Origin: an uncultured Gammaproteobacteria bacterium
GTDB lineage: Bacteria > Pseudomonadota > Gammaproteobacteria > Pseudomonadales > Pseudohongiellaceae
Assembly (NCBI GenBank): GCA_913060695.1
Contig: CAJXUA010000023.1
Location: 1-48,727 of the forward strand
Direction: 5' to 3'
DNA length: 48,727 nucleotides
The notes under the pieces: model-generated
Told to the model about the DNA's origin: nothing
What the model saw: the letters and a program-made list of their open reading frames with translations, nothing else
Database searches by the model: none
Shown here: in pieces, positions 1 through 18,814 of the stretch
Numbering within the stretch: position 1 is the stretch's first letter
Layout: each line of letters opens with the position of its first letter
Program-made: the position numbers and the translations under genes

Positions 1-137
1 TCGGCGAGGAAGGTGGTTTCTTAATAAGCGAATTCTGGTCTCCTGTAGCTCAGGGCGGTGCATTGGCCGGACACCCTGCTCTCGGTGCCGCTTATCGTGA
101 TCGCAGCATCCCGCTTAACAAGGCAGGCTGGAGTGCT
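1..137 (+). repeat. Left-edge copy of an 855-codon internal repeat
   Basis: Bases 1-137 match 2566-2702 with seven mismatches, and the first 55 bases are identical. The offset of 2565 bp is exactly 855 codons, so the large LRR+PPC unit of the first gene is itself tandemly repeated. The contig begins inside the identical stretch, which suggests an assembly break at the repeat. Confidence 0.9.
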
Positions 138-3100
138 AATTTGGTCACAGAGAGTGCCTCGCAACGAGATATTCTGGTCGATCTTTATAACTCTACCGGT
201 GGTGATAACTGGACTGACAATACCAACTGGCTGGGTGCTGAGGGCACAGAGTGCAGTTGGTATGGGGTGCAGTGTGATGGTGACGAAAATGTCACGCAGC
301 TAAGTCTTGAACGGAACAATCTGGTGGGCAGTATTCCCGCAGAGATCGGTGACCTAAGTACACTGCAGCTATTGTTGATGGGTGGCAACCAACTCAGTGG
401 CACCATTCCAAGTAGCATTGCTCAGTTAGATAACCTGACCAATCTTCAACTATGGAATAATCAGTACAATGGCGCCTTACCCTCATTTATTAGTGAGATG
501 ACGCAGCTTCAATACCTAGGTCTAGGCGGTAATCAATTTAGCGGCACTATTCCAGCTTCCTACGGCAATCTTGTAAACATGCGGGATCTGCAACTTTCTT
601 ACACGCAGTTGAGTGGCAGTATTCCCGAGGAACTCGCAAACCTAGTCAATGCCACTACTATCAACTTAAGCAACAACCAACTAAGTGGACCAGTTCCAGA
701 TTCAGTGCTGTCTTTAGGCGTAGTGAACCTCTGGGCTAATCCCAATCTTACTGGTATCGAGTTCGGCAATCCGGTTGCCTGCGAAAACCAGGCGGCATTA
801 GCGCTGGGGGCACAAATAGAAGGCGCATTGACCCCATTCGAAGATTGCTACATAGAAGAAGAGCGCATTATGGCGGACTTCTTCCGTCTAGATCTGAGTG
901 GTGAGTCTGGTACTACCTTATTCAAGATTGAGGCTTACTCCGATTTCTACTACCCCCATGTGGGAGTGTTGGATGCGAGCGGTGTCGAAGGTCAGGACAT
1001 CGTGGATACACAGATTCAGCAGAATGGGCTGTCTTTTGAGGTTGCACTGGTACCAGGTGAGTATGTGCTGTACATCCATGGCGGCAGCTACCAACCTCGA
1101 AACGTAGCCGCTACAGGTGCTTACACTCTAAGTACTACAGTAATTGGGCAGGCACAGGTTGACTGTGTTGCTCCTACTTGGGTTAACAAGGGTGTAGAGC
1201 TTGATGCCGCGCTGAGCAGCGATGATTGCCTAGATACCTATAACGATCCGGACAGGCTCTACGACAGCTACAATATTTGGCTGGAGGAAGGAGAGAGCCT
1301 AATTACAACGCTGACGGCAGACTTTGAGTCGCAGGTCTTACATTTTGCTGGCAACGATTTTATTTCCTCCACCCCGAGCACTGCAGCTGGACAACAACAA
1401 GTGCTTACATACTCCGCACCGTATTCTGGATGGCACCGTTATGCGGTCTACGCGAGCAACAATACTCCATTAGCTGAAGGCGACTATACAATCGCGTTTT
1501 TCGAGCCGCCAGTATTTGGTAGTGCACAAGCCTGTACCGAGGGTCTTCCCACGCTTGCCTTGGGAGGCAGCACCAGCGCTGCAGCGCTTGATCGGAACAC
1601 TGACTGCTACATAGCGGGAAGAATGTCTGACCGTTACGCTCTGAGCTTAGACAGTGACACATTGTTTAGAGCCACTATGGATGCAGATGGCTTTACACCT
1701 CTCCTGTCAATATACAACGCTGGCGCTGCAGAGCCGATTACCCTAAACGGCAATAGCCAATCCAACTTCACTGCTGAGTTCTATCTAGCAGCAGGTGAGT
1801 ATTGGTTGGCCGCAAGTAGTGGCGCTAGCAATGGATTGGCTCCAATTGAAGGTAGCTACGAGCTGTCATTAACTGCTGCGTTGCCAATCAGTCAGTTACA
1901 AGATTCTTGTATGGTAACAACGACTGTTTTCGCCGGTGCCTCGCTAGCTGGGGAAGTTAACACTAACGATTGCCGAAACAGTTTTGTTGCCGATGTAGAG
2001 GCCAGACCATACTTTGATGGTTACGAGTTTACGGTGGGCGCAGGTGAGCTTGTGTACCCTGCACTAACGGTCGATTTCCCTGTCAAGCTTGCTCACTGGT
2101 TCAACGGAGCGTTCCAGCAACAATATTTGCTGGGTGCCGGAGAAGATGTTCGAATCTCTATCAACACAGCGGGTACGCACGAACTCTATGTGCTCGGTCA
2201 GAGTGTTAATGATCTGGGTAGCTATCAGCTAGACCTGTTCCAGAGCCAGCCGGATCTCGAGACTATACCAATAGCGTTCTCCTTCGCGTTCACCGATTTC
2301 CGCAATGTTGTTGACGGTGTAGTGCAAACTGGTCCGTCAGATCACGTGCTGACCGGCGTCGTCGATGCGGTGATGGCTGATGATGATGTGTTTGAAGTAA
2401 TCAGTCTTCGCCAGGCTGCACTTGATGGCAATGCGTATTTGCTTGGCGATGAACCTGGCATCGTTGCGTTGCGAGCGAATCAGCCAGCCTTACTGAGTCT
2501 TTCAGGAAATCTGCTAGATGTCCTGGTATGCCCAGCTGGCTTTGGCGCCACAAACGATTGTCCGTTCGGCGAGGAAGGTGGTTTCTTAATAAGCGAATTC
2601 TGGTCTCCTGTAGCTCAGGGTGGTGCATTGGCAGGGCACCCGGCTCTCGGTGTCGCTTATCGTGATCGCAGCATTCCGCTTAACAAGGCAGGTTGGAGTG
2701 CTTACATCGTCGTTGACAGTGAAGCGCAGCGTGAAAATCTGATCAGTCTGTATAACGCCACCGGTGGTGCCAACTGGACCAATAACACAGGCTGGCTAGG
2801 CGCAGAGGGTACTGAATGTAGTTGGTTCGGTGTGAGTTGTGAAAACGGGAATGTTGTAAGCATTAACCTGTCTAGTAATGGACTGGTGGGCACTATACCG
2901 TCATCTCTCTCTCAATTTAGTGAGCTCAGAAACTTACTACTAAATAACAACCAGTTGAGTGGAAGTATTCCAGTTGAGCTTGCTCAGCTAAGCAAACTTA
3001 GCTATCTGAGTCTGGCTACTAACCAGCTTACTAGCGCTATTCCTGAGCAGTTAAGTCAGCTTGCTAATCTAACTAGGCTCTTCCTTCAGCAGAATCTGTT

Positions 3101-4391
3101 AACTGGGGCTATACCTTCAGAGCTAGGTCAGCTGAACAATCTTACACACTTGTATTTGCATCAGAATGAACTCAGCGGTGCCATACCTACATCGCTAGGT
3201 CAGTTGAGCAATCTGATTCAGCTATTCGTGCACGAGAATCAGTTGACGGGCTCTATCCCGTCGTCACTAGGACAGCTGAACAAGATGACGCACCTGGTTC
3301 TGTCCTTCAACTCGCTAAGTGGAGAAATTCCAACTGAGTTAGGTCAACTGACTAGCCTTCAGAAACTGTTCGCTCGGGGTAACCAATTTACTGGGGCAAT
3401 CCCTGCCGAGTTCGCGCAGTTGAGTAATCTGACAGAACTATACCTAGCCGATAATCAGCTAAGTGGTTCGATACCTGCGGTGCTTACACAGCTAAACAAG
3501 CTGACCATACTGGATCTTGAGAACAATAATCTGACAGGTGCATTACCAGCGTTTGCTGCTTCGGTTGCAGTCAATGTTGATGGCAATTCATTGGATGTAC
3601 CACCAACGCAGCAGGTCTACCTGAACGGCTTAGGCAAGGTATTTAAAGGCGTGTTGAATAATCTGCCTATTTTCTACGACGTCACCGACGGGAATTCGGC
3701 CCTTACAGGGCTTGGATTCCACATCTATTTTGACTCCACACAAGTAGACAGTATTGCCTTTGCCAATGTGCTGAATACCTCTTTGCTCACCTCAGACGAC
3801 TCGGGTACTGAAGACAGCAACGACTCGGATAACGACCCGAGTACCGACCGTTTTATCACTATCGGCTGGACGGATATCTCGGGTAATTGGCCGGGAAGCT
3901 TGCCGGTAAAATTGTTCGATTTGCGTGTACAACTTGATGACGCAATGAGTGCGAGTGATCAACTTATTCTGAACTTTGTAGGCTCCGCGAATACCACTGG
4001 GTATGAGTTGGAGTTGCCTCAACTAAGTTTAGCAGTCAGCACCGAAACACTGGATGTCGATGGCAACGGCAAGGCGGAAGCCCTGACGGATGGTTTGCTC
4101 ATTATACGCAGGCTGTTTGGTTTCAGTGGTGCTGTGTTGATTGATAGGGCGATTGCTAACGACGCAGTATTGACCACGGCGGAAGCGATAGTGGCGCGCG
4201 TGCAGCAGATGGACTCAATACTCGATGTCGATGGTGATGGAAAGGTAGAAGCCTTGACCGATGGGCTGCTGATTATTCGCTATCTGTTCGGGTTCCGCGG
4301 CAACGTGTTGGTGGCCAATGCCATCGGCAGTGGGGCTACAAGGACTACGGCATCTCAGATCGAAGAGTATCTTGCGGCACTTGTGCCCTAA
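1..4391 (+). CDS. Giant secreted LRR protein with PPC-like, cohesin-like and dockerin-like modules (5' partial)
   Basis: The frame is open at the first base, so the start lies outside the window; about 1462 codons are visible. In order it has the tail of a beta module, an LRR cap with the GGDNW...CSWYGVQC pattern and plant-type LRRs (xLxGxIP, ~150-760), four Cys-bounded pre-peptidase C-terminal-like modules (~776-2250), a beta module (~2250-2710), a second LRR cap plus about ten LRRs (~2715-3600), a cohesin-like domain (~3610-4040) and two dockerin/EF-hand-like repeats starting LDVDGNGK and LDVDGDGK (~4050-4390). It is probably a calcium-dependent extracellular adhesion or matrix protein; no enzymatic motif is seen. 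It is followed after 42 bp by the small cohesin-like gene and heads the visible cluster. The domain calls for LRR and EF-hand loops are firm. The PPC-like and cohesin-like labels are by pattern only. Confidence 0.85.
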   Translation, partial: GEEGGFLISEFWSPVAQGGALAGHPALGAAYRDRSIPLNKAGWSANLVTESASQRDILVDLYNSTGGDNWTDNTNWLGAEGTECSWYGVQCDGDENVTQLSLERNNLVGSIPAEIGDLSTLQLLLMGGNQLSGTIPSSIAQLDNLTNLQLWNNQYNGALPSFISEMTQLQYLGLGGNQFSGTIPASYGNLVNMRDLQLSYTQLSGSIPEELANLVNATTINLSNNQLSGPVPDSVLSLGVVNLWANPNLTGIEFGNPVACENQAALALGAQIEGALTPFEDCYIEEERIMADFFRLDLSGESGTTLFKIEAYSDFYYPHVGVLDASGVEGQDIVDTQIQQNGLSFEVALVPGEYVLYIHGGSYQPRNVAATGAYTLSTTVIGQAQVDCVAPTWVNKGVELDAALSSDDCLDTYNDPDRLYDSYNIWLEEGESLITTLTADFESQVLHFAGNDFISSTPSTAAGQQQVLTYSAPYSGWHRYAVYASNNTPLAEGDYTIAFFEPPVFGSAQACTEGLPTLALGGSTSAAALDRNTDCYIAGRMSDRYALSLDSDTLFRATMDADGFTPLLSIYNAGAAEPITLNGNSQSNFTAEFYLAAGEYWLAASSGASNGLAPIEGSYELSLTAALPISQLQDSCMVTTTVFAGASLAGEVNTNDCRNSFVADVEARPYFDGYEFTVGAGELVYPALTVDFPVKLAHWFNGAFQQQYLLGAGEDVRISINTAGTHELYVLGQSVNDLGSYQLDLFQSQPDLETIPIAFSFAFTDFRNVVDGVVQTGPSDHVLTGVVDAVMADDDVFEVISLRQAALDGNAYLLGDEPGIVALRANQPALLSLSGNLLDVLVCPAGFGATNDCPFGEEGGFLISEFWSPVAQGGALAGHPALGVAYRDRSIPLNKAGWSAYIVVDSEAQRENLISLYNATGGANWTNNTGWLGAEGTECSWFGVSCENGNVVSINLSSNGLVGTIPSSLSQFSELRNLLLNNNQLSGSIPVELAQLSKLSYLSLATNQLTSAIPEQLSQLANLTRLFLQQNLLTGAIPSELGQLNNLTHLYLHQNELSGAIPTSLGQLSNLIQLFVHENQLTGSIPSSLGQLNKMTHLVLSFNSLSGEIPTELGQLTSLQKLFARGNQFTGAIPAEFAQLSNLTELYLADNQLSGSIPAVLTQLNKLTILDLENNNLTGALPAFAASVAVNVDGNSLDVPPTQQVYLNGLGKVFKGVLNNLPIFYDVTDGNSALTGLGFHIYFDSTQVDSIAFANVLNTSLLTSDDSGTEDSNDSDNDPSTDRFITIGWTDISGNWPGSLPVKLFDLRVQLDDAMSASDQLILNFVGSANTTGYELELPQLSLAVSTETLDVDGNGKAEALTDGLLIIRRLFGFSGAVLIDRAIANDAVLTTAEAIVARVQQMDSILDVDGDGKVEALTDGLLIIRYLFGFRGNVLVANAIGSGATRTTASQIEEYLAALVP
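2566..2702 (+). repeat. Second copy of the 855-codon unit junction
   Basis: This is the internal copy of the sequence at bases 1-137. It encodes the EEGGFLISEFWSPVAQGG segment that joins the beta module to the next LRR cap. Most differences from the edge copy are third-codon-position changes, which indicates selection on the protein after duplication. Confidence 0.9.
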
Positions 4392-4433
4392 TTAAAATAT
4401 TAATGCACTGTTTCAATAGGGAAGGGCTTTTTA

Positions 4434-4925
4434 ATGATTAAACACAGAGAAATAAAGTTCACCGGTGTTTTTTTGACGTTAGGCATGCTGCTCTCTGGCT
4501 TTGTGATTGCACAAGAACAGAAGATTTCGTTGCTGGAGGAAAGTACTCCGAAAGGTGAGCGGGAAGCCATAGTTTACTATCAGGTCAGTGACGATGAGTT
4601 GACTACTGGCATTGGGTTTCGCGTGCATTTCTCCAGCGGCAAAGTGAATGTACTCGAGGTGGAAAGTTATCTCGAACTCTCCAATGTTGGCATCGACATC
4701 ATGGCAGACACGCAAGATCTAGATCAGGATCCGAATACGGACTTCTACATTAATGCAGCCTGGGTTGATCTAAACGGTGAATGGCCCTTGGCTACAACTA
4801 TGCCTGTAAAGCTTTACAGTTTTACTTTTGACGCATTAACTGTGCCAGCGTCTGAGTTGTTCACAATAAGTCAGTCTTCGACGCCAGTCGGATTCGATTT
4901 CGTCTCCGCTATAACCAACAAGTAA
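4434..4925 (+). CDS. Small secreted single cohesin-like domain protein
   Basis: This 163-aa protein has an N-terminal signal peptide (basic start, hydrophobic core, likely cleavage after VIA near residue 26). The rest is essentially one copy of the beta-rich domain found at the C-terminal part of both LRR giants and at the N-terminus of the next two proteins. Shared marks are YYQVSDDELTTGIGFRVHF, an acidic calcium-loop-like DQDPNTDFY, AWVDLNGEWP, and a final strand ending near GFDF. The start at 4434 is supported by a GGAAGGG ribosome site just upstream. It lies 42 bp after the first LRR gene and 13 bp before the cadherin-like gene, so co-transcription is likely. It could be a soluble binding partner or linker of the giants. 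No named family was recognised. Confidence 0.85.
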   Translation: MIKHREIKFTGVFLTLGMLLSGFVIAQEQKISLLEESTPKGEREAIVYYQVSDDELTTGIGFRVHFSSGKVNVLEVESYLELSNVGIDIMADTQDLDQDPNTDFYINAAWVDLNGEWPLATTMPVKLYSFTFDALTVPASELFTISQSSTPVGFDFVSAITNK

Positions 4926-4938
4926 AAGAGAGGCCATA

Positions 4939-7900
4939 ATGAAAAAAGCAAAATTGGGATTAGCGGTTGCGGCAGCACTATTTGCACAGAACGCATTAGC
5001 ACAATCAGCAGAACAACAAGTCAGAGTTTCGGTTGAGAAAGTTGAAGGGAATAATTACCAGGCGAAGATTTATTATCAATCTTCAGACGGCAGCGGAACT
5101 ACTGGGCTCGGGCTTCGTTTTCATTACCCGTCTTCGTTGGTGACAATGGCAGCTCCCACTTTAGCTTTGTCAGAGGCGAATTTAGGAGTTGCAGACGCGC
5201 CGGATTCAGATGTTGGCAATGATTATGACAGTAATCCGTTGACCGACAAATTTTACACTGCGGCTTGGGCTGTATTTTCAGGCGCAAATTGGCCGACGCA
5301 AAGGGATCTAGAAACTCTGCTACTCACATTCGATTTTGAGTTGAAGGATGGCGTAAACCCTGCCCAAATTCCTTTCAATTTCACCGCGTCTTCCGTGTCA
5401 ACGGGTTACACATTTGCACCCACTAATTATTTGCAACGCCTGCCAGATATCAATGTGGCTCCTGCAGGCGCGGATAAGGTAGTTAGCCTTAATGAAGAGC
5501 AAGCTTATACCCTAAGTCAAACGGACTTTGGCTTCACTGATGAGGACAGCAACACTTTCATTGCCGTTAAAATCAGCAGTTTGCCAAGCGCAGGCAGCCT
5601 ACAGCTTAATGGTGCAGATGTAGAGGTAGGCCAGCTTGTAGAGATTGCAAATCTCTCTAGCCTGGTTTTTACCCCTGCTGCCAACGCCAGTGGCAATGCC
5701 TACAGCGCCTTTACTTTCCAGGTGAAGGACAATGGTGCAGACCCCACAACGGGGAAGAGCGGCAGTATCGATCTCGATCCCGTGCCCAATTCGATCACTT
5801 TCAACGTGGCCGCGGTCAATGACGCTCCCTCTGGAAGCAATAACACAGTTCAGCTCAACGAGGATGGTGACTATACCTTCGCCGCAGCCGACTTTGGTTT
5901 TAGCGATACTAATGATACGCCGGCGAATAATTTTTCGTCCCTCACCCTTACTAGCCTTCCATCTGTAGGGGCACTGACTTTGAATGGCGCTGGCGTGTCA
6001 ATTGGGCAGCAAGTTCCCGTGGCGCAGATATCAACTCTTGTATATACACCTTCAGCAAATCTCAATGGAGCGGCGGCGGCTAGTTTTACTTTCCAAGTTG
6101 GCGATGATGGCGGGACCGACAGTGGTGGTATTGCCGTCGATGCAACGCCGAAAACCATGACGCTGTCAGTGAACTCTATTAATGATGCTCCAGTAGGTGC
6201 AGATAAAGGTATATCAATTCTCGAGGGCAATACTCGTAGTTTTGCGATCGCGGACTTTGGCCTTACGGATCCTAACGATGCTACGCCTAACGCGTTGCTC
6301 AACGTCATTGTTCAATCAATACCCGCGCAAGGCTCTCTGAAATTCAATAACGTTGATGTTGCTATTAACGACATCATTCCTGCTGCTAGTTTGAACAATT
6401 TGGTCTATACGCCGCCAGTAGGCGTAACGGGCGCAGCCATTGCAAATTTCAGCTTCAAGGTGCAGGACAACGGTGGTACTAGTAATAACGGCGCTGATAC
6501 TGCAGTTGCCAGCAATACAATTTCGTTGAGCGTGACCGATATCAATAGCGCCCCAAGCGGTGCAAGCAACACAGTTAGTTTGAATGAGAACGCTTTCTAC
6601 GATTTTGCTGCCAATGACTTCGGTTTCACCGACAGCGCAGATACCCCAGCCAATGCGTTATCGGCAGTAAGAATTTCTAGCCTGCCGAGTTCAGGAGCGT
6701 TGACGCTGAACGGCGGTACTGTGAGCGTGGGGCAAGAAGTAGGAGTAAGCCAGATTTCAAATCTGCGTTTTACTCCGGCAGCCCACGGCAACGGCGCCAC
6801 TTATGCTAGCTTTAGCTTCCAGGTTAAGGACGATGGTGGTACGCAAGAAGGCGGTGTTGATCTCGACCCAACACCTCGCACTATCACGCTGAATGTCGCG
6901 TCAATTAACAGTGCGCCAGCAGGCGCCAACAACTCTGTAAGCGTGTTGGAAGATGAGGCGCATACTTTCTCCTCAGCAGACTTCGGTTTCTCGGATTCGA
7001 ATGACACGCCAGCCAATACCTTGTCCGCTGTGATCATCGATTCGCTGCCAGGGGCGGGCACGTTGAAGTTAAATGGTAATGCCGTGACGGTAGGTCAATC
7101 GGTACCCGCAGCTTCGCTCGGCCAACTAATCTATGCCCCTGCTGCAAATAAGTTTGGGGATGCCTATGCCAGCTTTACCTTCCGTGTACAGGACAATGGA
7201 GGCCTTGCTAATGGTGGTCTGGATACCGATGCTAGCGCCCGGACAATTACCGTCAATGTTAGCGCAGTTAATGACTGGCCAGCGGGTAGCGATAAACTGC
7301 TAACCGTGAATGAGAATGCCAGCCTGAATCTACAAGTAGATGACTTCGGGTTCAAGGATGTTGTAGACGGCGCAAACGCGGGTCAATTGAAGGCGGTGCA
7401 GATCGTCAGCTTACCCGATGTCGGTTCACTAACACTTGATGGAAATGCAGTTGTCGAGGATGATTTCATTCAAGTAGCGGATTTGCCAGAACTAGCATTT
7501 ACCCCTGTCGCTCATGAAAATGGCGAAGACTATGCGCAACTCGTATTCCGAGTTCAGGACGATGGAGGGACCGCACAGGGAGGCGTCGACCTTCAGGTAA
7601 CGACATCTACCCTTACCTTTGATGTGCGCGCAGTTAATAGTGCGCCAGTGGGTGTAAGTAACGAAACCACTATTCTCGAAGGGGCCAGTTATACCTTCAG
7701 TGCTGCCGATTTTGGCTTTAGCGATACGCTCGACAAACCGCAAAACACGCTTCTAGCGGTTAAAATTGCTAGTCTGCCCCCTAAAGGCGAGTTGCTACTC
7801 GATGACACTGCAGTGGTAGCGGAGCAGTCGATTCCAACGGCGAGTTTGGCGCAACTTGTATTCAAACCTGCCGCACACGGCAATGGCGATGACTACGCCA

Positions 7901-10035: not shown

Positions 10036-11597
10036 AGTATGTAGTTCTTGTCGTTACATTGATTCTGCTACTGGGCTGTATTTCTATGACTTACGCCCAG
10101 TCGCAGCAAGTCAGGGTGGCTGTGGAGGGCACGGCACAGGGGCAGTATCGGGCCAATGTGTACTATCGGTCCTCGGACGGGCGCAAGACTACTGGCCTTG
10201 GCATTCGGGTGCATTATCAAGACAGCATTATCCGAGTGACCAGCACCAGTGATGTACTGGCGAATAGCACTGGCCTACAGGATCAAGTAGATCAAACGAA
10301 TTATGATCAGGATATTGCTACTAACCGATTCCTGAACGCAGCTTGGTTCGATTTGAACGGCAATTGGCCTTCAATTAGTGATGCTGAAGTACGCTTATTC
10401 AGCATCAACTTTGAACTGCGTAACCCGCAAAATTCACAGCAGGTGCTTTTTAACCTTAGCTCAGTGTCTACCGCGAGCGGTTACGAATTGAGTGCTACTA
10501 ACTACCGTTCAAATCTAGTCAGTGAACCGCAACAACAAGACGGGAGCCACGAAGCGCTTCGTCAACAAACAACAGCAACTGTGCGTGCTGGTATTGCAAA
10601 TTTCTCGTCGTCAATCGATATAGAGTCAGACACTCAAGTACGAGAACTTTTGAGTCAGAATTCTGCTGCTTTTAGATTCGCCCTAGATGCCTCGCAAAAA
10701 CTCTCATCGGATTGGTCGCCAGACGCCGTTGCGTTGGAGGCGGCCATGAAAGAGCGCGGCCTACCTGTCCAGTTAGCTCCTCTACTCGCACAACTGTTAG
10801 GAAAAGCACTTGCCCTCGATTCTGTCAACATCGGGGAAGGGAGTGCTGCTGGGGTCTTACGGGATGCCTTAGGTAGTGCAGCAGATCTACGTCAGGACGC
10901 GTTGACGGCAACTCTGGACATTACTCTGCCCGGTGAACGTTATCAGGGCATGGTGTCTGCTGTGCGAGTGGTCAGTGACCTGCTGCCTACCGGCCTGCGT
11001 TTTCTGCCGGACGGACAGGCAGTGCTTGTCCATCAGGGCTATGCCTTTGAGATTGCGCCAGTAGTCACAGATCTACCAGGCTTCGTGGCGCTCGTCGAGA
11101 ACGCGGGCTTCGATATGACACTACGCGATGACGGGGCAATAGACCTCGATCTCGGTGGAGGAGAGCATTTCGTAGGCGTAGTGGCCTACGACAACCTAAT
11201 TGGGTCTACGGGCGCATGTGGCGATATGGATATCGCCGCGCCTGCGGGCCCAATCAACTCACCTAGCTATACCTTCACTGTTCGCTGTGCCAATGGTGCA
11301 CAGCAACGCATCGTGCCCTACGTGCATGACAACGCCTTCTATCAAGCCATGGCCGATCTCGGCAACGCAGTGACAACCGATCGCAATACTGGGGTGGTCT
11401 CTATCGAGGGCATGGGCATGTACAAACCCAGTTATTTTGTGAGCCCACTTACGCCTAGTGAGAGTGAATATTTGGCTGCGAATAAAAATAGCAAAGGGGT
11501 GTCGATTCGTTACTCCGATGTGAATAGCGATGGGGAAGAGGATATTGTTCTGCTCACGTCAGTGGGCGCACAACTAATATACCGAGTGCTGCCTTAG
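10032..11597 (+). CDS. Secreted cohesin-like domain plus shared C-terminal domain
   Basis: This 521-aa protein starts at GTG 10032, overlapping the preceding stop by GTGA, so translation is probably coupled. It has a signal peptide (cleavage after TYA near residue 22) and a cohesin-like domain (~25-160) with TTGLGIRVHY and AWFDLNGNWP; the acidic loop is degenerate here (ATNRF replaces the usual PxTD). Residues ~175-521 align along their whole length with the C-terminus of the preceding 1698-aa protein. Shared marks are FDMTLRDDG, FVGVVAYDN, RCANGAQQRIVPYVHD, VTTDRNTG and YKPSYF, with a final DVNSDGEEDI calcium-loop-like motif. It is thus a version of its neighbour without the eight cadherin-like repeats. 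It may be the other half of a pair that assembles on the surface; function unknown. Confidence 0.87.
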   Translation: MKYVVLVVTLILLLGCISMTYAQSQQVRVAVEGTAQGQYRANVYYRSSDGRKTTGLGIRVHYQDSIIRVTSTSDVLANSTGLQDQVDQTNYDQDIATNRFLNAAWFDLNGNWPSISDAEVRLFSINFELRNPQNSQQVLFNLSSVSTASGYELSATNYRSNLVSEPQQQDGSHEALRQQTTATVRAGIANFSSSIDIESDTQVRELLSQNSAAFRFALDASQKLSSDWSPDAVALEAAMKERGLPVQLAPLLAQLLGKALALDSVNIGEGSAAGVLRDALGSAADLRQDALTATLDITLPGERYQGMVSAVRVVSDLLPTGLRFLPDGQAVLVHQGYAFEIAPVVTDLPGFVALVENAGFDMTLRDDGAIDLDLGGGEHFVGVVAYDNLIGSTGACGDMDIAAPAGPINSPSYTFTVRCANGAQQRIVPYVHDNAFYQAMADLGNAVTTDRNTGVVSIEGMGMYKPSYFVSPLTPSESEYLAANKNSKGVSIRYSDVNSDGEEDIVLLTSVGAQLIYRVLP

Positions 11598-11635
11598 ATT
11601 AGCTCCTATGAACGTGTGTACTTGAGAAGGGATAG

Positions 11636-11659: not shown

Positions 11660-11665
11660 TTGATT

Positions 11666-12943
11666 ATGAAAGCAAATATAAAAAATAATATTATTGTTTC
11701 GAGGAAAGAGAATACCTCAGTTGCGGCATTGGCTGTCGCGGCGTATTTCCTGACGTTCAGTGTCGACTCGTCAGTAGATGTTTCATTATTGGTTCTAATG
11801 GCGGGGGCAGTGTGGATGCAATTCGCTGGAAATTCTCGCAAGGTGAAATTCAATTCGATTGATGCGCTTGTTATTGGTTTCGTCATAGTGCTTTTGTTTT
11901 GCGCTCTCCTTTCAGAGAGCATAGAGAAAAGCTTCATTCTGAGTGCCGCGTTTGTACCTGCACTTTTACTCTATTACCTGATTCGACATTGCCGAGGAGA
12001 TTCAGACATCAATGTTGTGATCTTGTCATTGCTTATTCAGGTAATGGGGCTCGCTGCGCTATCTGTGTATAGGACTACAGTTGACGATCTTCTTCCTGCA
12101 GACATAGTTAGGCAGATCGGTAGCCATATTCTGATAGTGCCAAATGATGTCGTGCTTTTTGTCCTTTCAATTCCGTTGTTCTTAGCGTTGCACGAAACCT
12201 CTAGGAATCGTGCGATATCGGCTGCGGTAGGGTTATCCATAATACTAATTGCAGTGGCGGTCATCAGCTTACAGAGTCGACTAGCAGTGCTGACAGGTGG
12301 TTTGAGTATTTCGTGTTACTACTTATCTAGGTCACGAAGTATTTCTGCCATGTCCATTTTAAGCGTTCTTGCAGTAATAGTGTTGATCGATTCATTTTTT
12401 GAGTTCGCCTTGATTCAGAAAATTCTTAGCTTTAGTGATAGTCGCCTACCACTTTGGTATGCCGCATGGGAAATGTTCAAGGAAAAGCAATTCGTTGGGT
12501 TCGGCCCGCATACCTACGGTGATTTCTCCCAGGCCTATTTTGTCTTCGAAGGCTTCGCAGAAAATATTGTCGTTGATCATCGGCACACCCCATGGCCGCA
12601 CAGTCTCTATCTTGAATTATTAGCTGAGTATGGTTTGCTCGGTTTCTCGGCCTTCTTGGCGATCGTTGCAGCGGTCTCCAGGCAGCTAATAAGAAGAGTG
12701 CCTAAACAGGATGATGATTGGCAGGCAGTTAATTCTGGTCTTTTAGCGGCATTTACAGGGTTCCTGTTTGCAGCTTTCTTCGAGCTAACCTTGCTTCGTT
12801 TGTGGGTGGTGGTCTTCATGTTTGCGCTGTTGGGCTTTAGCGCCTTGATGCTCGAGCAAGGAATTCCCGCAAAAGATAAAGAGAACTCGATTAGAAAACC
12901 TCTAAAAATTAAAAATAGATCACGCACTGTGAGTAGCGTTTAA
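11666..12943 (+). CDS. O-antigen ligase/polymerase-family (Wzy_C/WaaL/PglL-like) membrane protein
   Basis: This ~425-aa protein has about ten hydrophobic spans. It carries the family's large periplasmic loop signature: SRLPLWYAAWEMFKEKQFVG followed by GFGPHTYGDF, then PHSLYLELLAEYGLLG. The family transfers or polymerises lipid-linked glycans at the periplasmic face, either onto lipid A (WaaL), into O-antigen (Wzy) or onto proteins (PglL/TfpO). Sequence alone does not separate these. No other polysaccharide gene is in the window; it sits between exported-giant genes, 68 bp after one and 15 bp before the next. That favours a role tied to those proteins. I prefer ATG 11666 to an upstream in-frame TTG at 11660, as neither has a strong ribosome site. 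The C-terminus is a short basic cytoplasmic tail. Confidence 0.8.
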   Translation: MKANIKNNIIVSRKENTSVAALAVAAYFLTFSVDSSVDVSLLVLMAGAVWMQFAGNSRKVKFNSIDALVIGFVIVLLFCALLSESIEKSFILSAAFVPALLLYYLIRHCRGDSDINVVILSLLIQVMGLAALSVYRTTVDDLLPADIVRQIGSHILIVPNDVVLFVLSIPLFLALHETSRNRAISAAVGLSIILIAVAVISLQSRLAVLTGGLSISCYYLSRSRSISAMSILSVLAVIVLIDSFFEFALIQKILSFSDSRLPLWYAAWEMFKEKQFVGFGPHTYGDFSQAYFVFEGFAENIVVDHRHTPWPHSLYLELLAEYGLLGFSAFLAIVAAVSRQLIRRVPKQDDDWQAVNSGLLAAFTGFLFAAFFELTLLRLWVVVFMFALLGFSALMLEQGIPAKDKENSIRKPLKIKNRSRTVSSV

Positions 12944-12958
12944 CGCGAGGGACTAAAA

Positions 12959-15900
12959 ATGCGTCAGCTTATTGGGTCACTAAAGATATTGTTCATGGTG
13001 CTGAGTTTAGGAGTGCTTTTTTTGTTTCCGCAATGGAAGCAGGTGATGGCCTCTGCTGGCATTTATGATACGCCAGAAGAAGAGTTGGCGGCCCAGCACT
13101 TTGCGCTAACGGTTTTCTATGAGGCGACGGGCGGCGACAATTGGACAAATAAGACTGGCTGGTTAGGCGAGGCGGGGACCGAGTGTAGTTGGTACGGTAT
13201 TTCTTGTTCTGGTCAGAAAGTTACAAGCATCAGTTTTCCAATCTCTGTAGTGAATAATATGCCGGTTGGCAATAATTTGTCGGGAGTTATTCCCTCCGAA
13301 CTTGGAATCCTGTCTGAGTTAACGACAATTTACCTCCCATGGAATCATATAGGCGGAACTATTCCAGAAGCAATTTGGAGTCTGACGAATCTCACATTTC
13401 TAGATTTGCAGAGTAATCAGCTCTCTGGGGTGATATCGGGCAACATTGGTAATTTGACTAATCTTATCCAGCTGAGTCTTAGTGGAAATGCCTTTTCTGG
13501 TGCTATTCCTGATGAACTATGGCAACTTTCAGCCCTGTATAGTTTGTACTTGTCCAACAACTCTCTGAGTGGAATTATTCCGTCGGCGATTGGGAATCTG
13601 ACGAAGCTAACTCACCTGGATCTAGGTTCAAATAGCCTGTCAGGCACAATCCCAGATGAGCTTTGGCAACTTACAACTTTGAATAGTTTGTATCTGTATA
13701 GCAACGGACTTAGCGGACCGATCTCGTCGGAGATTGGCAATCTAGTAAATTTATCGAATCTTGGCCTATGGTCCAATCAATTTTCTGGAGTCATTCCCGC
13801 GTCTCTAGGTTCATTGAGTCAGTTGCGACAACTTGAACTAGGTTCGAATCAACTCTCCGGGCAGATCCCTATGTCACTTGGCGGGCTAAGTTTTTTAGAA
13901 CGACTTAGTGTCCATAGTAATCAACTAAGTGGCCCCATCCCTGTCGAATTGACTCAACTCTCCACTCTGAAATATCTCAATTTGCAGAATAATTTGCTGA
14001 CGGGACTAGTCCCCGAAGGTTTGGCAGATCTGCCGCTGTTAACTTCTTTTAATACCTCAGGAAACCCTGGTCTATTGTCACCGCTGGCCGTACCGGCCGA
14101 GCGCTCTGCACTAATTGCGTTCTATAACGCACTGGGGGGAGACAACTGGACCAATAATAGCGGTTGGCTAGGGGAGTCAGGGACCGAATGTAACTGGTAC
14201 GGCATCACATGCACAAACCGACGTGTTACTGGCATTTACTTTCCTACAACAATAGTCAATGGAGTGGATGTAGGCAATAACTTGATAGGCACGTTCCCTT
14301 CCGATATTGGAGTGTTCTCTGAGTTGCGTACAATTGGTTTTCGTAGCAATCAGATAGTGGGGGATATACCAGATACCCTGTGGAATCTAACAAATCTGAC
14401 ATCTCTCGATTTGCATCGCAATGGGATTTCCGGAATGATATCCAGTAGCGTAGGGGGTCTGTCAAACTTGACTTATTTGAATCTTGGCTTGAATTCTCTT
14501 TCTGGCACTATCCCTGATGAACTTTGGCAATTAACCTCACTAAGTTCTTTATATCTATACGGAAACTCACTGAGTGGAACGATCTCTTCAGAGATCGGGA
14601 ATCTAATCAATTTAAGATATCTCACTTTATCGTCCAATCAATTCTCCGGTGCTATTCCTAGTATATTGGGTTCATTGAACCAGCTTCGACAAATTGAGCT
14701 AGGTTCGAATCAACTCTCTGGACAGATTCCACGTGAGCTTGGAAGCTTAAGCTTGTTAGAAAATCTTAGCGTCTACAGTAATCAACTCAGCGGGTCTATT
14801 CCTGTCGAATTACTTCAGCTTACGGCACTGAGAAATCTAAATTTGCAGAATAATTTGTTGACCGGTCTAGTCCCTGAAGGTTTGGCAGATCTGCCACTTT
14901 TAACTTCATTCTATACTTCAGGAAATCCTGGTTTATTGTCACCGCTGGCCGTACCGGCCGAGCGAGCTGCACTAATTGCGTTCTACAACGCACTGGGGGG
15001 AGACAACTGGACCAACAACAGCGGCTGGCTCGGGGAGTCAGGTACCGAATGTAGCTGGTATGGTATCTCGTGCGGTAATGGTCGAATTACTGGTATTAAT
15101 TTTCCGAGCACATTTGTAAATGGCGTTTTGGTAGGCAATAACTTGGTAGGTTCTATCCCTGCGGAGATAGGCGTGTTCACTGAGTTAACATACCTTAGTT
15201 TAAACAGCAATCAAATAAGTGGAAATATTCCAGATACACTTTGGAATTTGACCAATCTTACATTTCTGAATCTGTCTGGTAATCAACTCGCTGGATTAGT
15301 ATCAAGTAGCATTGGTAATTTGACGAAGCTTACTTACCTGAATATTGGCACGAACTCTCTTTCTGGCACTATCCCGGATGATCTCTGGAATCTGTCTAGT
15401 CTGACATCACTTTATTTAGCAGATAATCAGCTCACTGGGACAATTTCGACGAGTATCGGGAATCTTACGAAATTGACTAACCTGAATCTTGGCTCGAATG
15501 CCCTTTCAGGAACTATTCCAGATCAGTTATGGCAACTCACCTCTTTAAGTAGTTTGTATATGTATAGCAATACTCTAACTGGAGCGATCTCGTCGAATAT
15601 AGGGAATCTAGTAAATCTCCGCTATCTCGGCTTATGGTCCAATCAGTTTTCTGGAGTGATACCTGTATCCCTAGGCTCCTTGAGTCAGCTAAGACATCTT
15701 GAACTAGGTTTGAATCAACTCTCCGGGCAGATTCCTAGTGAGCTTGGTGGCTTAAGTCTGTTAGAAAGCCTTGGTCTCTATAGTAATCAACTCAGCGGCT
15801 CTATTCCTGTTGAATTGCTTCAGCTCACTGCACTGAGAAATCTAAATTTGCAGAATAATTTACTAACGGGTCAGGTTCCTGAAGGCTTGGCAGATCTGCC

Positions 15901-18814
15901 GTTGTTAACTACTTTTAATACCTCGGGAAACCCTGGTCTATTGTCACCGCTGGCTGTACCGGCAGAACGCGCCGCTCTCATTGCATTCTATAACGCGCTG
16001 GGCGGAGACAACTGGACCAATAAAAGCGGCTGGCTCGGTGAGTCGGGCACTGAATGTAGCTGGTATGGTATTTCCTGCAGCAATGGCCGTGTTACTGGTA
16101 TTAGTTTTCCCAACTCCTTAGTCAATGGAGTGGTGGTAGGCAATAACTTGATCGGTTCTATACCTGTCGAGATTGGCGTGTTTTCTGAGTTAAGATCAAT
16201 TAGCCTCGCATCAAATCAAATTAGTGGAACAATTCCAGAGGCGCTTTGGAGCCTGACGAACCTGACATCTCTCCATATGTACGATAATCAACTCTCTGGG
16301 GCAATTTCGAGCAGTATAGGCAATCTTACGAAGTTGTCGTTTTTGAATCTGGGTTCGAATAACCTTTCAGGCACAATCCCAGATGAGCTATGGCAGCTTA
16401 GTTCGTTAACTGGTTTGTATCTGTACAGCAATGGATTTAGCGGAACTATCTCGCCGGCGATTGGGGATCTAGTTAACCTGCAGAGTCTTGGTCTATCGTC
16501 CAATCAATTTTCTGGGGTCATTCCCGCATCCTTAGGTTCCTTGAGTCAGTTGCGACAACTTCAATTAGGTTCGAATCAACTCTCCGGGCAGATTCCAACT
16601 GAACTCGGTGGGCTAAGTTTGTTAGAAGAACTTAGTGTCTTTAGTAATCAACTGAGCGGCTCCATTCCTGTCGAATTGCTTCAGCTTACGGCGCTGAAAA
16701 GTCTCAATTTGCACAATAATTTGCTGACCGGTGTAGTTCCAGCTGGTTTGGCAGATTTGCCGTTGTTAACTACTTTTAATACGTCAGGGAACCCTGGTTT
16801 ATCGGCTCCGCTGGCAGTGCCGGCTGAACGCGCAGCGCTGATTGCGTTCTATAATGCACTGGGTGGTGACAACTGGATCAATAATAGCGGCTGGCTTGGG
16901 GAGTCTGGTACCGAATGTAGTTGGTATGGAATCTCGTGCAGCAATGGCCGTGTAAATATCATTAACTTTCCCTCATCGGTCGTAGATGGTGTGCCTACAG
17001 GTAATAACTTGGTTGGCTCTATCCCTGCCGAGATAGGTGTGTTTACTGGGTTAAACGTGCTGGTTCTCGGTAATAATCAAATCTCCGGCGCCATCCCAGA
17101 TGAACTATGGCAACTTACCTCTTTGAATGCTTTGTACTTGTATGACAACGCTCTAAGCGGAACGATCTCGTCCGAAATAGGTAATCTGACGAATCTAAGC
17201 ACTCTGAGCCTAAGTTTGAATTCCCTTTCTGGTTTTATACCAATGGAAATTGGGAATCTAACAAAACTGCGTTCCTTGGGTCTTAGTTCAAATACCTTTT
17301 CCGGCACAATTCCAGATGAACTATGGCAACTCACTTCATTAAGGTTCATGTACCTCTACGGCAATGCTTTTTCTGGGACTATTCCCACGGAGCTTTGGAA
17401 TCTTACGGATTTGATATATATCAACCTGCGAAACAATCAATTTACTGGTGGAATTTCCGGTGTTGGTCTTGAGAATATGACTAACTTAACAACACTTGAT
17501 CTGTCATTTAACCAGCTAACAGGCACATTGCCATCCTCACTTGGTGCATTGGACGCGCTCCAATATTTATCTGTAGCAGGCAACGAGTTTAGTGGGGTTG
17601 TCCCGGCCAGTATTGCCAATCTGAGTAATCTGAATGAGTTGTATTTGTTCGATAATCAGTTTCAAAAGCCTTATCCCTCGCAGATACTCGCGCTGGAATC
17701 GCTGTTAGAGATTGATGCTCTGCGCGCCCTTTACCATGCGGCCGGAGGTGAAGATTGGAGCACGAGTTGGCTTACGGGCACCTATACAACACGCTGCACG
17801 ACATGGTTTGGAGTGACTTGCGACAACGAAGGTTATGTTACTTCGCTAGATTTATCCGATAACAATCTAGTTGGCACTTTACCTGTTGAACTTGGGCAAT
17901 TGACAAGGTTGCAGTCACTTAATGTATCCGATAATCAACTGACGGGAACAGTGCCGGATGTCTTCGCATCAGGTGTCGCGATTAACATTGAGAACACCCA
18001 ACTTGATAGTGGTGGCGAAGACTTGCCTAGTCAGATCGTTTACTTAAGTGGGAATCCCGTTTTCAGACTTGGGGCTCAGAATACCTTATCTTTTTATTAC
18101 GACACATCCGATGCCAGTGCATCGCTAACCGGTTTAGGTATACGAGTGCATATTGATTCAACAAGCATAGATGTCGCCGAGATCAGCAACGTACTGACGA
18201 CAGGGTTCACTGCAATCGATGATAACTGGTTGCCGGATACTAACGACTATGATGAGAATCCTAACACGGATAGCTATGTGACGATCGCGTGGGTAGATAT
18301 CAGTGGTAACTGGCCCGGAACAGTTCCTAAGAAGCTGTTTGATCTGCATCTAACGGCAGATGAATCTGTGACCACGGACGACACTATCTATGTTGGATTT
18401 TCCGCAGTATCTACTACGTCAGGTTACGAGGCAGACCTGCCTCGCATCGCGCTTACGCCAAGCAACCAAAGCCTCGATGTCGATGGCAATGGTAAAGTCG
18501 AGGCATTGACAGATGCATTGATGATTGTACGCAATCTGTTTGGGTTCAGCGGCAATGCCTTGATCGATCGAGCCGTTGCCTCGGATGCTAGCTTTACAAC
18601 TGCGGTACAGATCCAGCAACGACTTAGCGATATGCGACCGATTCTCGATGTCGATGGCAATGGCACCTATGATGCGCTAACGGATGGTTTGCTGATCATT
18701 CGTTATGCGTTTGGTTTCCGTGGCAGTGTCTTAATAAGTAATGCGGTGTCAAACGGATCGACAAGAAATAGCGCAGCGCAGATAGAGGCGTATCTGGCGG
18801 GAATAGTACATTGA
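12959..18814 (+). CDS. Giant secreted plant-type LRR protein with cohesin-like and dockerin-like C-terminus
   Basis: This 1951-aa protein follows a GAGGGA ribosome site. It has a signal peptide (~1-33) and six LRR blocks, each opened by a cap with GGDNWTNxSGWLGExGTEC and CSWYGISC. The repeats are 24-residue plant-type LRRs (LxxLxLxxNxLSGxIPxxLGxL). The sixth block is short and divergent (AAGGEDWSTSWL). The C-terminus carries the cohesin-like domain (~18030-18455; TGLGIRVHI, DENPNTDSY, AWVDISGNWPG) and two dockerin/EF-hand-like repeats (LDVDGNGK ... ALTDALMIVRNLFGF, LDVDGNGT ... ALTDGLLIIRYAFGF). The architecture is parallel to the first gene of the cluster without its PPC-like part. N-x-T/S sequons are abundant in the LRRs. 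It probably mediates protein or glycan binding outside the cell. An REP palindrome follows the stop. Confidence 0.9.
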   Translation: MRQLIGSLKILFMVLSLGVLFLFPQWKQVMASAGIYDTPEEELAAQHFALTVFYEATGGDNWTNKTGWLGEAGTECSWYGISCSGQKVTSISFPISVVNNMPVGNNLSGVIPSELGILSELTTIYLPWNHIGGTIPEAIWSLTNLTFLDLQSNQLSGVISGNIGNLTNLIQLSLSGNAFSGAIPDELWQLSALYSLYLSNNSLSGIIPSAIGNLTKLTHLDLGSNSLSGTIPDELWQLTTLNSLYLYSNGLSGPISSEIGNLVNLSNLGLWSNQFSGVIPASLGSLSQLRQLELGSNQLSGQIPMSLGGLSFLERLSVHSNQLSGPIPVELTQLSTLKYLNLQNNLLTGLVPEGLADLPLLTSFNTSGNPGLLSPLAVPAERSALIAFYNALGGDNWTNNSGWLGESGTECNWYGITCTNRRVTGIYFPTTIVNGVDVGNNLIGTFPSDIGVFSELRTIGFRSNQIVGDIPDTLWNLTNLTSLDLHRNGISGMISSSVGGLSNLTYLNLGLNSLSGTIPDELWQLTSLSSLYLYGNSLSGTISSEIGNLINLRYLTLSSNQFSGAIPSILGSLNQLRQIELGSNQLSGQIPRELGSLSLLENLSVYSNQLSGSIPVELLQLTALRNLNLQNNLLTGLVPEGLADLPLLTSFYTSGNPGLLSPLAVPAERAALIAFYNALGGDNWTNNSGWLGESGTECSWYGISCGNGRITGINFPSTFVNGVLVGNNLVGSIPAEIGVFTELTYLSLNSNQISGNIPDTLWNLTNLTFLNLSGNQLAGLVSSSIGNLTKLTYLNIGTNSLSGTIPDDLWNLSSLTSLYLADNQLTGTISTSIGNLTKLTNLNLGSNALSGTIPDQLWQLTSLSSLYMYSNTLTGAISSNIGNLVNLRYLGLWSNQFSGVIPVSLGSLSQLRHLELGLNQLSGQIPSELGGLSLLESLGLYSNQLSGSIPVELLQLTALRNLNLQNNLLTGQVPEGLADLPLLTTFNTSGNPGLLSPLAVPAERAALIAFYNALGGDNWTNKSGWLGESGTECSWYGISCSNGRVTGISFPNSLVNGVVVGNNLIGSIPVEIGVFSELRSISLASNQISGTIPEALWSLTNLTSLHMYDNQLSGAISSSIGNLTKLSFLNLGSNNLSGTIPDELWQLSSLTGLYLYSNGFSGTISPAIGDLVNLQSLGLSSNQFSGVIPASLGSLSQLRQLQLGSNQLSGQIPTELGGLSLLEELSVFSNQLSGSIPVELLQLTALKSLNLHNNLLTGVVPAGLADLPLLTTFNTSGNPGLSAPLAVPAERAALIAFYNALGGDNWINNSGWLGESGTECSWYGISCSNGRVNIINFPSSVVDGVPTGNNLVGSIPAEIGVFTGLNVLVLGNNQISGAIPDELWQLTSLNALYLYDNALSGTISSEIGNLTNLSTLSLSLNSLSGFIPMEIGNLTKLRSLGLSSNTFSGTIPDELWQLTSLRFMYLYGNAFSGTIPTELWNLTDLIYINLRNNQFTGGISGVGLENMTNLTTLDLSFNQLTGTLPSSLGALDALQYLSVAGNEFSGVVPASIANLSNLNELYLFDNQFQKPYPSQILALESLLEIDALRALYHAAGGEDWSTSWLTGTYTTRCTTWFGVTCDNEGYVTSLDLSDNNLVGTLPVELGQLTRLQSLNVSDNQLTGTVPDVFASGVAINIENTQLDSGGEDLPSQIVYLSGNPVFRLGAQNTLSFYYDTSDASASLTGLGIRVHIDSTSIDVAEISNVLTTGFTAIDDNWLPDTNDYDENPNTDSYVTIAWVDISGNWPGTVPKKLFDLHLTADESVTTDDTIYVGFSAVSTTSGYEADLPRIALTPSNQSLDVDGNGKVEALTDALMIVRNLFGFSGNALIDRAVASDASFTTAVQIQQRLSDMRPILDVDGNGTYDALTDGLLIIRYAFGFRGSVLISNAVSNGSTRNSAAQIEAYLAGIVH
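13115..17728 (+). repeat. LRR super-repeat with alternating 335- and 287-codon modules
   Basis: The conserved FYxALGGDNW cap codons start at 13115, 14120, 14981, 15986 and 16847, giving spacings of 1005, 861, 1005 and 861 bp. The difference of 144 bp equals two 24-residue LRRs. The alternation points to duplication of a two-module unit of 1866 bp. The last divergent cap begins near 17729. Confidence 0.85.

Follow-up and report, generated by a model that had tools for sequence, protein, structure and literature searches.

A cluster of six genes at the start of the 48,727 nt window (the whole stretch of DNA analysed here) probably specifies surface proteins with LRRs or cadherin repeats that assemble through calcium-dependent cohesin-dockerin pairing of a non-cellulosomal kind. 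Five homologous domains of approximately 130 aa and two EF-hand-type doublets all lie within this single + strand cluster, and no further copies of either were found elsewhere in the 99%-complete host genome. From its predicted structure and from sequence comparison the domain is classed as a divergent cohesin, and the doublets are identified at the sequence level as dockerin-like pairs of calcium-loop repeats.

Organisation of the gene cluster

The cluster occupies positions 3-18814 of the window and consists of closely spaced genes on the same strand which encode secreted-looking, repeat-rich proteins. Since the counts of promoters and terminators within it are at the level of shuffled sequence, its operon structure is deduced from gaps and strand only. 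The window represents an entire contig (C23) that begins inside ORF1, within a 277 nt repeat, and the N-terminus of ORF1 is consequently missing. The following features were assigned:

3..4391, + strand: ORF1, truncated at its 5' end where the contig starts; LRR protein with a cohesin-like domain and a C-terminal dockerin-like doublet, 1462 aa visible
3603..4037 (3600-4064 in the wider delimitation), + strand: cohesin-like domain d1 of ORF1, assigned by homology to the other four copies
4044..4388, + strand: dockerin-like doublet of ORF1
4434..4925, + strand: ORF2; signal-peptide-like N-terminus (by eye), then a lone cohesin-like domain (4512-4922); AF2 model
4939..10035, + strand: ORF3; signal-peptide-like N-terminus (by eye), cohesin-like domain at 5002-5463
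about 5452-8358, + strand: cadherin-like repeats of ORF3
8941-10026, + strand: C-terminal region of ORF3 in common with ORF4
10032..11597, + strand: ORF4; GTG start, signal-peptide-like N-terminus (by eye), cohesin-like domain at 10098-10538
10572-11588, + strand: C-terminal region of ORF4 in common with ORF3
11666..12943, + strand: ORF5; member of the cluster resembling Wzy_C / O-antigen ligases, 11 hydrophobic segments
12959..18814, + strand: ORF6; 1951 aa LRR protein with a cohesin-like domain and a C-terminal dockerin-like doublet
18026..18460 (18026-18487 in the wider delimitation), + strand: cohesin-like domain d6 of ORF6, assigned by homology to the other copies; AF2 model
18467..18811, + strand: dockerin-like doublet of ORF6; AF2 model of domain plus doublet

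The first-pass annotation had described five copies of one domain of approximately 130 aa, and all are present where it had placed them or within a few codons, being mutually homologous in an all-against-all BLASTP comparison (five-sequence database, E 1e-15 to 1e-51). The motifs it quoted do occur but vary between copies (TGLGFHIYF in copy 1, AWAVFSGANWP in copy 3, DQDIATN in copy 4). Both of the paired repeats it had reported were located (4044-4388 and 18467-18811), and the LRR and cadherin-like repeats of the cluster proteins are real, with Pfam LRR_8 and Cadherin_4 scores of 427.9 and 82.8 bits, respectively. It had missed the polytopic Wzy_C protein (11666-12943) of the cluster. Of the five exported proteins that it had claimed, four show by eye a signal-peptide-like N-terminus, the start of ORF1 being cut off by the contig edge. 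An anchor was recognised in none of the cluster proteins, and its 'no anchor' is correct for this window only, as an anchor is present in some of the domain protein's relatives. The start of ORF4 overlaps the stop of ORF3 by 4 nt, and the two proteins have a second region of approximately 340 aa in common (BLASTP, E 6e-93), for which neither a Pfam match nor a convincing PDB relative was obtained.

The cohesin-like domain

The cohesin fold is a nine-stranded beta-sandwich, and the AF2 model of mature ORF2 (pLDDT 91.6, pTM 0.87) likewise comprises nine strands, thereby presenting, as a predicted structure, the cohesin fold of PF00963. Among the best 42 PDB rows retrieved with this model by Foldseek, 36 have cohesin in the title and six are cellulosomal scaffoldin complexes (4fl4, 3kcp), in which cohesins are present. 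Cohesin is named in every one of the 15 rows with E<=0.001. The TM-scores to cohesins are moderate (query-normalised 0.35-0.61). The domain-plus-doublet model of ORF6 (mean pLDDT 93.7, pTM 0.78) retrieved cohesin or scaffoldin entries in 23 of its best 24 PDB rows, the isopeptide stalk domain CLIPPER (9ifr) standing at rank 20 with the highest target-normalised TM-score (0.69), and other sandwich or unrelated proteins at ranks 25-34, still with E<=0.001. In the ORF2 search CLIPPER appeared at rank 44. The term cohesin-like had originally been given on the letters alone; structure prediction and comparison yielded a fold that is not unrelated to cohesin, with cohesin or scaffoldin entries as the best PDB rows, and the term is further supported by profile comparison and intermediate sequences.

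The curated cut-off of Pfam Cohesin (PF00963) is 24.1 bits, and none of the five whole domain proteins of the window, nor isolated ORF2, matched this model even at E<=10. A profile built from the window only did find copies in Prochlorococcus at 57-81 bits, and four such places in two Prochlorococcus genomes exceed the Pfam Cohesin cut-off (25.0-38.3 bits). Within the domain family 10 of 27 rows matched Pfam Cohesin at E<=10 (best 8.8e-9), more than matched any other family (two rows each for the next), and the seven families that these rows match at this threshold do not include DUF11, the CLIPPER model. The Cohesin model also matched two of 14 control genomes, above the cut-off in one. When the 27-row profile was compared to PDB sequences the two best matches were cohesins, with weak E-values of 0.093 and 0.44. 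An hhalign score of 28.2 was obtained against rumen cohesins, while 200 column shuffles reached at most 16.2. With a profile restricted to the five domains of the window, hhalign gave 0.3% to cohesins and a PDB search no convincing match. Of the 22 rows listed, six that are near-copies or cover the domain in part (L049, L051, L058, the second L060 copy, L061 and L063) were kept out of row set A5. A generic kinship with cadherins was considered and rejected, as the cadherin repeats of the window reached 1.4% in hhalign. In the domain tree the ORF1 and ORF6 copies group together (99/97) and those of ORF2-4 make up another branch (93/82), with weak support for the deep split (53/78).

The dockerin-like doublets

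Each doublet consists of an LDVDGNGK..TDGLLIIR-type repeat occurring twice, i.e. two predicted tandem F-hand calcium-loop repeats, and the doublets of ORF1 and ORF6 are 64% identical. Comparison with rumen dockerins by hhalign, for which the rumen loci were partly fetched with the peptide DVDGNGKV and hence form a favourable sample, gave a probability of 98.6% (E 6e-16), and the earlier designation as dockerin-like is supported accordingly. Row set A7 omitted one partial place of the eight over the cut-off in two rumen genomes. Relative to the curated cut-off of Pfam Dockerin_1 (PF00404), 22.9 bits, the window remains below threshold (ORF1 18.9 and ORF6 11.9 bits as whole proteins, the isolated ORF6 doublet 21.0 bits), and six of eight doublet family rows match the Pfam dockerin model at E<=1 (best 4.7e-7). 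None of the 50 PDB rows from the ORF6 model search aligns to the doublet as a dockerin.

Canonical type I dockerins are compact modules of approximately 60-70 residues. The doublet is approximately 115 aa long, its calcium loop has a one-residue insertion relative to dockerin, and each repeat has extra length, being followed by a further helical segment; in view of this length and these segments it is named dockerin-like and is not counted among the canonical type I dockerins. Dockerins are typically found at protein termini, and the doublet was terminal in all 19 ORFs examined in genomes of the same order (11 N-terminal, eight C-terminal), which cover 19 of the 34 doublet places outside the host genome. 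A role as C-terminal secretion signal was rejected since the doublet also lies near N-termini, directly after signal-peptide-like stretches.

Pairing of domain and doublet in other genomes

Beyond the host genome but within its order or class, a doublet lies within 10 kb of the domain at six of eight loci, for which chance is about 4e-11 if the loci are assumed to be independent; at one of the eight (L030) none occurs within the 20 kb read. Across 390 genomes of the order the domain was detected in six, the doublet in 11 and both in five (P 3.7e-8; 2e-5 by genus), six of the 11 doublet-bearing genomes being without a detectable domain. In these order and class genomes domain and doublet mostly reside in separate adjoining proteins, and several loci place an anchored-type domain protein beside a doublet-bearing peptidase or collagen-like protein (two neighbours of each kind). 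The JDVT-CTERM anchor, scanned for in five domain proteins, scored above its cut-off in one, just below in three and was absent from one. In picocyanobacteria the two modules are often fused in one protein, and the domain directly precedes the doublet in many of these proteins, as it does in ORF1 and ORF6; some picocyanobacterial proteins lack the domain and have only a doublet (two ORFs in L154). Two Prochlorococcus genomes hold eleven and nine copies of the connector family, respectively.

Conservation in relatives, which the first-pass annotation had named among its tests, is seen for the pairing of domain and doublet but not for the exact cluster, the domain being found in none of 136 other members of the host's family. 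A contig scan of other genomes using the ORF6 domain plus doublet confirmed 12 loci of 347 stretches, two of which (L017 and L018) cover both parts; with the ORF4 domain none of 26 candidates was confirmed. Plasmid-borne spread was rejected: 72,556 plasmid records gave one 37-residue match to the ORF6 domain plus doublet (Pseudanabaena, E 8e-4) and none to ORF4.

Discussion

In the assembly that we favour, the cluster proteins would be exported, as suggested by Sec-type signals discerned by eye in four of the five, and extracellular calcium would fold the doublets, whereupon ORF2, ORF3 and ORF4 could receive the doublets of ORF1 and ORF6 in their cohesin-type domains. The role of receptor or spacer would fall to ORF3, the long protein with cadherin repeats, and to the shorter ORF4 related to it, whereas ORF1 and ORF6, with their LRRs, would be the ligand-binding cargo on display and free ORF2 a cap or linker. 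Because domain and doublet lie side by side in each, ORF1 and ORF6 might also form chains with one another. As the weakest step of the proposal, ORF5 with its Wzy_C similarity may glycosylate the coat.

X modules adjoin and stabilise dockerins in X-dockerin dyads, and the domain might similarly steady its own doublet, the receptor of which would lie elsewhere while the stand-alone domains bind something else. The position of the domain directly before the doublet, seen in ORF1 and ORF6 as well as in many proteins of picocyanobacteria, the confident model of the ORF6 chain and the separate branch of the ORF1 and ORF6 domains, as if specialised, are all consistent with such an intramolecular module, but the deep split of that tree is weak and an intramolecular role cannot explain the separate adjoining proteins of the order and class genomes; we consider it unlikely. 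The doublets may alternatively be genuine dockerins with another, unrecognised surface receptor, the cohesin-type domain being a mere frequent companion in such surface clusters. This would suit the six of 11 doublet genomes of the order in which no domain was detected, and those picocyanobacterial proteins that have a doublet alone, but five of the six domain genomes of the order also have the doublet, which lies close by at six of eight domain loci, making this reading very improbable.

It is also rather improbable that these are generic adhesin parts with no specific pair, namely a domain of Ig-like or CLIPPER-like type forming a stalk or tip, together with a doublet acting as calcium-binding folding cap or secretion signal. 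The surrounding LRR, cadherin, HYR and collagen repeats are ordinary adhesin material and CLIPPER does appear in both structural searches, with the best target-normalised TM-score in that of ORF6, but the best 42 PDB rows for ORF2 are all cohesin or scaffoldin entries, Cohesin is the most-matched Pfam family, and the doublet is found at N- as well as C-termini and within 10 kb of most domain loci. CLIPPER (DUF11) is described as a domain of a Gram-negative fibrillar adhesin (PMC12617251). It is likewise a sandwich domain of surface proteins and matches the ORF6 domain in structure, but it ranks lower than cohesins in Foldseek, DUF11 does not occur among the Pfam families matched by the 27 rows, and in the available portion of that report CLIPPER is not linked to EF-hand doublets.

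The cohesin-dockerin surface assembly has in common with the type I pair of the cellulosome (Clostridium, Ruminococcus) a predicted nine-stranded cohesin-type domain and paired dockerin-type calcium-loop repeats at protein ends, but differs in the one-residue loop insertion and the extra length per repeat. A cellulosome as such is rejected: Pfam matches in the six cluster proteins include neither glycoside hydrolases nor a CBM, and the cluster has no scaffoldin with several cohesins, since each domain protein of the window has one cohesin-like domain, five in the genome. Another likeness is to the 'planctosome' proposed for freshwater Planctomycetes, hypothetical according to its authors, in which cohesin and dockerin modules are described for surface proteins that are anchored and contain HYR and TSP repeats, together with peptidases, an adaptor bearing both modules and no cellulose degradation (PMC6461901). 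The present cluster differs from that account in its LRR and cadherin proteins, its five single domains in one cluster and a domain below Pfam detection. Non-cellulosomal dockerin and cohesin proteins are also reported for ANME archaea (PMC9012536), and for Saccharophagus degradans two ORFs of dockerin-like type and six that are distantly related and cohesin-like (PMC2386152), similarly without a classical cellulosome; those accounts enumerate the modules from annotation and defer binding to later studies, whereas here their pairing is indicated by gene neighbourhood across several lineages. Judged by titles and the openings of abstracts, no paper describing the present system was found.

A wider reading, offered tentatively, is that of a calcium-switched, self-polymerising coat in which LRR proteins link head to tail and dock on cadherin-repeat receptors via the same domain, forming an extracellular modular matrix. 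The same family might then be a general-purpose extracellular snap connector, used in picocyanobacteria and, in the host's order and class, for peptidases and collagen-like proteins on anchored receptors, with the cellulosome as one specialised use. The divergent modules of the cluster suggest that a cellulosome-type snap connector is used for a cell-surface coat unrelated to cellulose. Cohesin-dockerin pairs are among the strongest protein clips known (PMC6030884), and should this divergent branch bind as predicted, the host lineage and Prochlorococcus would build surface coats with such a clip, a set of possibly orthogonal pairs would become available, and the function of non-cellulosomal cohesins could be tested directly. 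The small stand-alone ORF2 domain and the two doublets make such binding easy to test.

Gene organisation of the cluster

Contig C23, which constitutes the entire window, derives from a 3.73-Mb genome with an estimated completeness of 99.26% and carries six consecutive forward-strand genes separated by intergenic gaps of 42, 13, -4, 68 and 15 nt. A ShlB-type transporter and an O-antigen-ligase-like protein, both encoded on it, point to a probably Gram-negative host.

Genes of the cluster (domain, ~130-aa cohesin-like domain; doublet, dockerin-like EF-hand-type pair)
3-4391, +: ORF1, LRR protein ending in domain and doublet; truncated at the contig edge
4434-4925, +: ORF2, domain by itself
4939-10035, +: ORF3, domain and cadherin-like repeats
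10032-11597, +: ORF4, ORF3-like, without the cadherin-like repeats
11666-12943, +: ORF5, polytopic Wzy_C/O-antigen-ligase-like protein between the cluster's surface-protein genes; possible dedicated glycosyltransferase
12959-18814, +: ORF6, LRR protein ending in domain and doublet

The first-pass annotation had described five exported proteins sharing one domain. BLASTP against a five-sequence database bears out the sharing, as all five copies are mutually homologous (E 1e-15 to 1e-51), and a genome-wide search at E≤1 retrieved only these five domains and two doublets, all within the cluster. Signal-peptide-like N-termini, judged by eye, are present in ORF2, ORF3, ORF4 and ORF6, while the 5' end of ORF1 is cut by the contig edge. 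The contig start falls within a 277-nt repeat (1-277) that is 82% identical to a copy inside ORF1 (2566-2842); the true ORF1 is therefore likely to be longer, and the repeat may be where the assembly broke. ORF3 and ORF4 have in common a C-terminal region of ~340 aa (8941-10026 and 10572-11588; 43% identity, E 6e-93), for which neither a covering Pfam or NCBIfam match nor a convincing PDB relative was found.

The shared domain as a divergent cohesin

Pfam Cohesin yielded no match to the whole window proteins at E≤10 or to the source genome at E≤1, and the five window copies alone, employed as a profile, gave nothing useful against the PDB or against cohesins. This five-copy profile reached two Prochlorococcus single-cell genomes (G874 and G875) at 57-81 bits (loci L053, L055, L056 and L060), and four Prochlorococcus places found in this way exceed the Cohesin cut-off of 24.1 bits (38.3, 29.8, 26.4 and 25.0 bits), the L060 copies lying slightly under it (22.6-22.7 bits). 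A Cohesin match of 16.8 bits in genome G346 coincides exactly with the domain of locus L030; the model also matched two of 14 control genomes, one of them above the cut-off. At E≤10, Cohesin matches were obtained for 10 of the 27 rows of the family alignment, the strongest at 8.8e-9; no other family matched more than two rows. Comparison with seven rumen cohesins using hhalign gave a score of 28.2 (probability 32.5%), against at most 16.2 over 200 column shuffles, 10.4 for the reversed profile and 17.5 for the window's cadherin repeats. Among 177,635 PDB sequences, the top two matches of the 27-row profile were cohesins, with weak E-values (4dh2, 0.093; 5lxv, 0.44).

The AlphaFold2 model of mature ORF2 has nine strands (pLDDT 91.6, pTM 0.87), and all 15 of its Foldseek rows at E≤0.001 have cohesin in the title. 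Ranks 1-42 (query-normalised TM 0.35-0.61) comprise 36 cohesin titles and six cellulosomal scaffoldin complexes (4fl4, 3kcp), which we take to contain cohesins, and include the non-cellulosomal Archaeoglobus cohesin 2xdh. The model of the ORF6 domain plus doublet (pLDDT 93.7, pTM 0.78) matched cohesin or scaffoldin entries at ranks 1-24 save rank 20, the CLIPPER domain 9ifr (PMC12617251), which had the top target-normalised TM among the 50 rows listed (0.69; best cohesin 0.67); ranks 25-34, also at E≤0.001, were non-cohesin proteins, mostly Ig-like or pilin sandwiches. Based on the intermediate sequences, the profile comparison and the predicted fold, we conclude that the cohesin-like domain of the first-pass annotation is in all likelihood a divergent cohesin.

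The terminal doublet

Each repeat of the doublet conforms to the type LDVDGNGKVEALTDGLLIIRYLFGF and continues into an additional helical segment, and the two repeats within one doublet align across almost their whole length. Comparison with six rumen dockerins using hhalign gave 98.6% (E 6e-16; 98.0% with the eight-row doublet family), which upholds the description of these tails as dockerin-like, in a sample that favours the doublet because the rumen loci were retrieved partly by a scan using the peptide DVDGNGKV among others. The doublet loop has one extra residue relative to the rumen dockerins (EALTD versus EATD), and the doublet spans ~115 aa, canonical dockerins having 60-70 aa. Dockerin_1 scores lie under the cut-off of 22.9, at 18.9 and 11.9 for the whole window proteins and at 21.0 when the ORF6 doublet is scored in isolation. 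All 50 rows listed for the ORF6 domain-plus-doublet model align at least 148 columns to targets that are sandwich-type or larger; the fold comparison, which matched the domain to cohesins, therefore matched the doublet to no dockerin among them. The doublet is thus dockerin-like and not a canonical type I dockerin.

Outside the source genome, 19 ORFs from 18 loci (of 34 places) carry the doublet near the N-terminus (11) or at the extreme C-terminus (8), and none internally; one C-terminal case (L069) is an ORF with little besides the doublet.

Co-occurrence of domain and doublet

The domain was found in one of 137 genomes of the family (the source genome itself), in three of 369 of the class (source genome counted) and in six of 390 of the order, where the doublet occurs in 11 and both in five, source genome included (hypergeometric P 3.7e-8; 1.1e-6 with the source genome excluded; 2e-5 by genera, related genomes not being independent). 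In the other six doublet-bearing genomes of the order no domain was detected even by the 27-row profile at E≤0.1; these genomes (G293, G382, G462, G464, G480 and G509) carry one to nine dockerin-like doublets each.

In the order and class surveys, domain-only profiles identified eight further domain loci, spread over seven genomes besides the source genome; at six of these loci a doublet lies within 10 kb, in five different arrangements (chance P about 4e-11 if the loci are independent). The survey for co-occurrence proposed in the first-pass annotation thus shows the pairing to recur in relatives.

Domain loci with a doublet within 10 kb (JDVT-CTERM cut-off, 27 bits)
L029: HYR-repeat domain protein carrying JDVT-CTERM (28.2 bits); adjoins a 950-aa protein whose doublet lies close to the N-terminus
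L031, L032: domain proteins ending in JDVT-CTERM-like stretches slightly under the cut-off (26.5, 25.5); the adjoining collagen-like proteins have a single N-terminal repeat
L034: domain gene that overlaps the end of an RTX/clostripain-family peptidase ORF with a terminal doublet; JDVT-CTERM absent
L043: domain protein with a trypsin-like protein immediately after it, the latter ending in the doublet
L042: domain with a doublet 8.6 kb further downstream

At L033 a different dockerin-like stretch lies in the domain ORF itself (rumen profile E 6e-4; no Pfam match), and L030 has no doublet within 20 kb.

In the two Prochlorococcus genomes the domain is matched 11 and 9 times and the doublet 12 and 10 times, the doublet tally including fragments and one match interrupted by a stop. 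Of 300 genomes drawn from their family, seven have the domain, these two among them; among ten additional stretches taken from the remaining five, seven carry domain and doublet in a single ORF, the exceptions being L147, L150 and L156, of which L147 and L156 run into a contig end.

Proposed assembly

Given the fold class (by model), the repeat type, the gene clustering and the recurring pairing, it is fairly probable that the cluster proteins are exported, that their doublets fold in a calcium-dependent way and that those of ORF1 and ORF6 dock into the domains of ORF2-4, with the fusion of domain and doublet possibly allowing chaining and ORF5 putatively glycosylating. The main rival explanation is that the domain, where fused to the doublet, plays an intramolecular, X-module-like role; this cannot account for relatives with domain and doublet in separate proteins. 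Judged from sequence, several such relatives encode an anchored-type domain protein next to a doublet protein of the secreted type, the arrangement in which a cohesin-dockerin pair works. In the 27-row tree the ORF1 and ORF6 domains join (99/97), as do those of ORF2-4 (93/82), including ORF3 with ORF4 (98/89). The deeper split, between the fused type plus Prochlorococcus and the N-terminal/anchored type, is weak (53/78) and offers only a lead, in that it would fit adaptor-type versus receptor-type cohesins.

Non-cellulosomal cohesins and dockerins are already a known theme, as in the proposed planctosome (PMC6461901), ANME archaea (PMC9012536) and Saccharophagus (PMC2386152), with TMEM132 cited under the same theme (PMC6030884). 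In a search of titles and abstract openings from the mainly open-access literature, the divergent branch, the longer doublet, the LRR/cadherin cluster and the picocyanobacterial spread were undescribed among the matches listed.

Other features of the contig

A second large surface system, a two-partner secretion pair, occupies positions 28994-42783. Its first member is a TpsA-type protein of 3991 aa containing a TPS domain, an MBG_2 domain and 15 YDG-domain stretches, and its second is a ShlB/FhaC-type transporter. Positions 43529-45091 of the reverse strand encode a 520-aa protein with no Pfam match at E≤0.001, which by eye appears to be exported.
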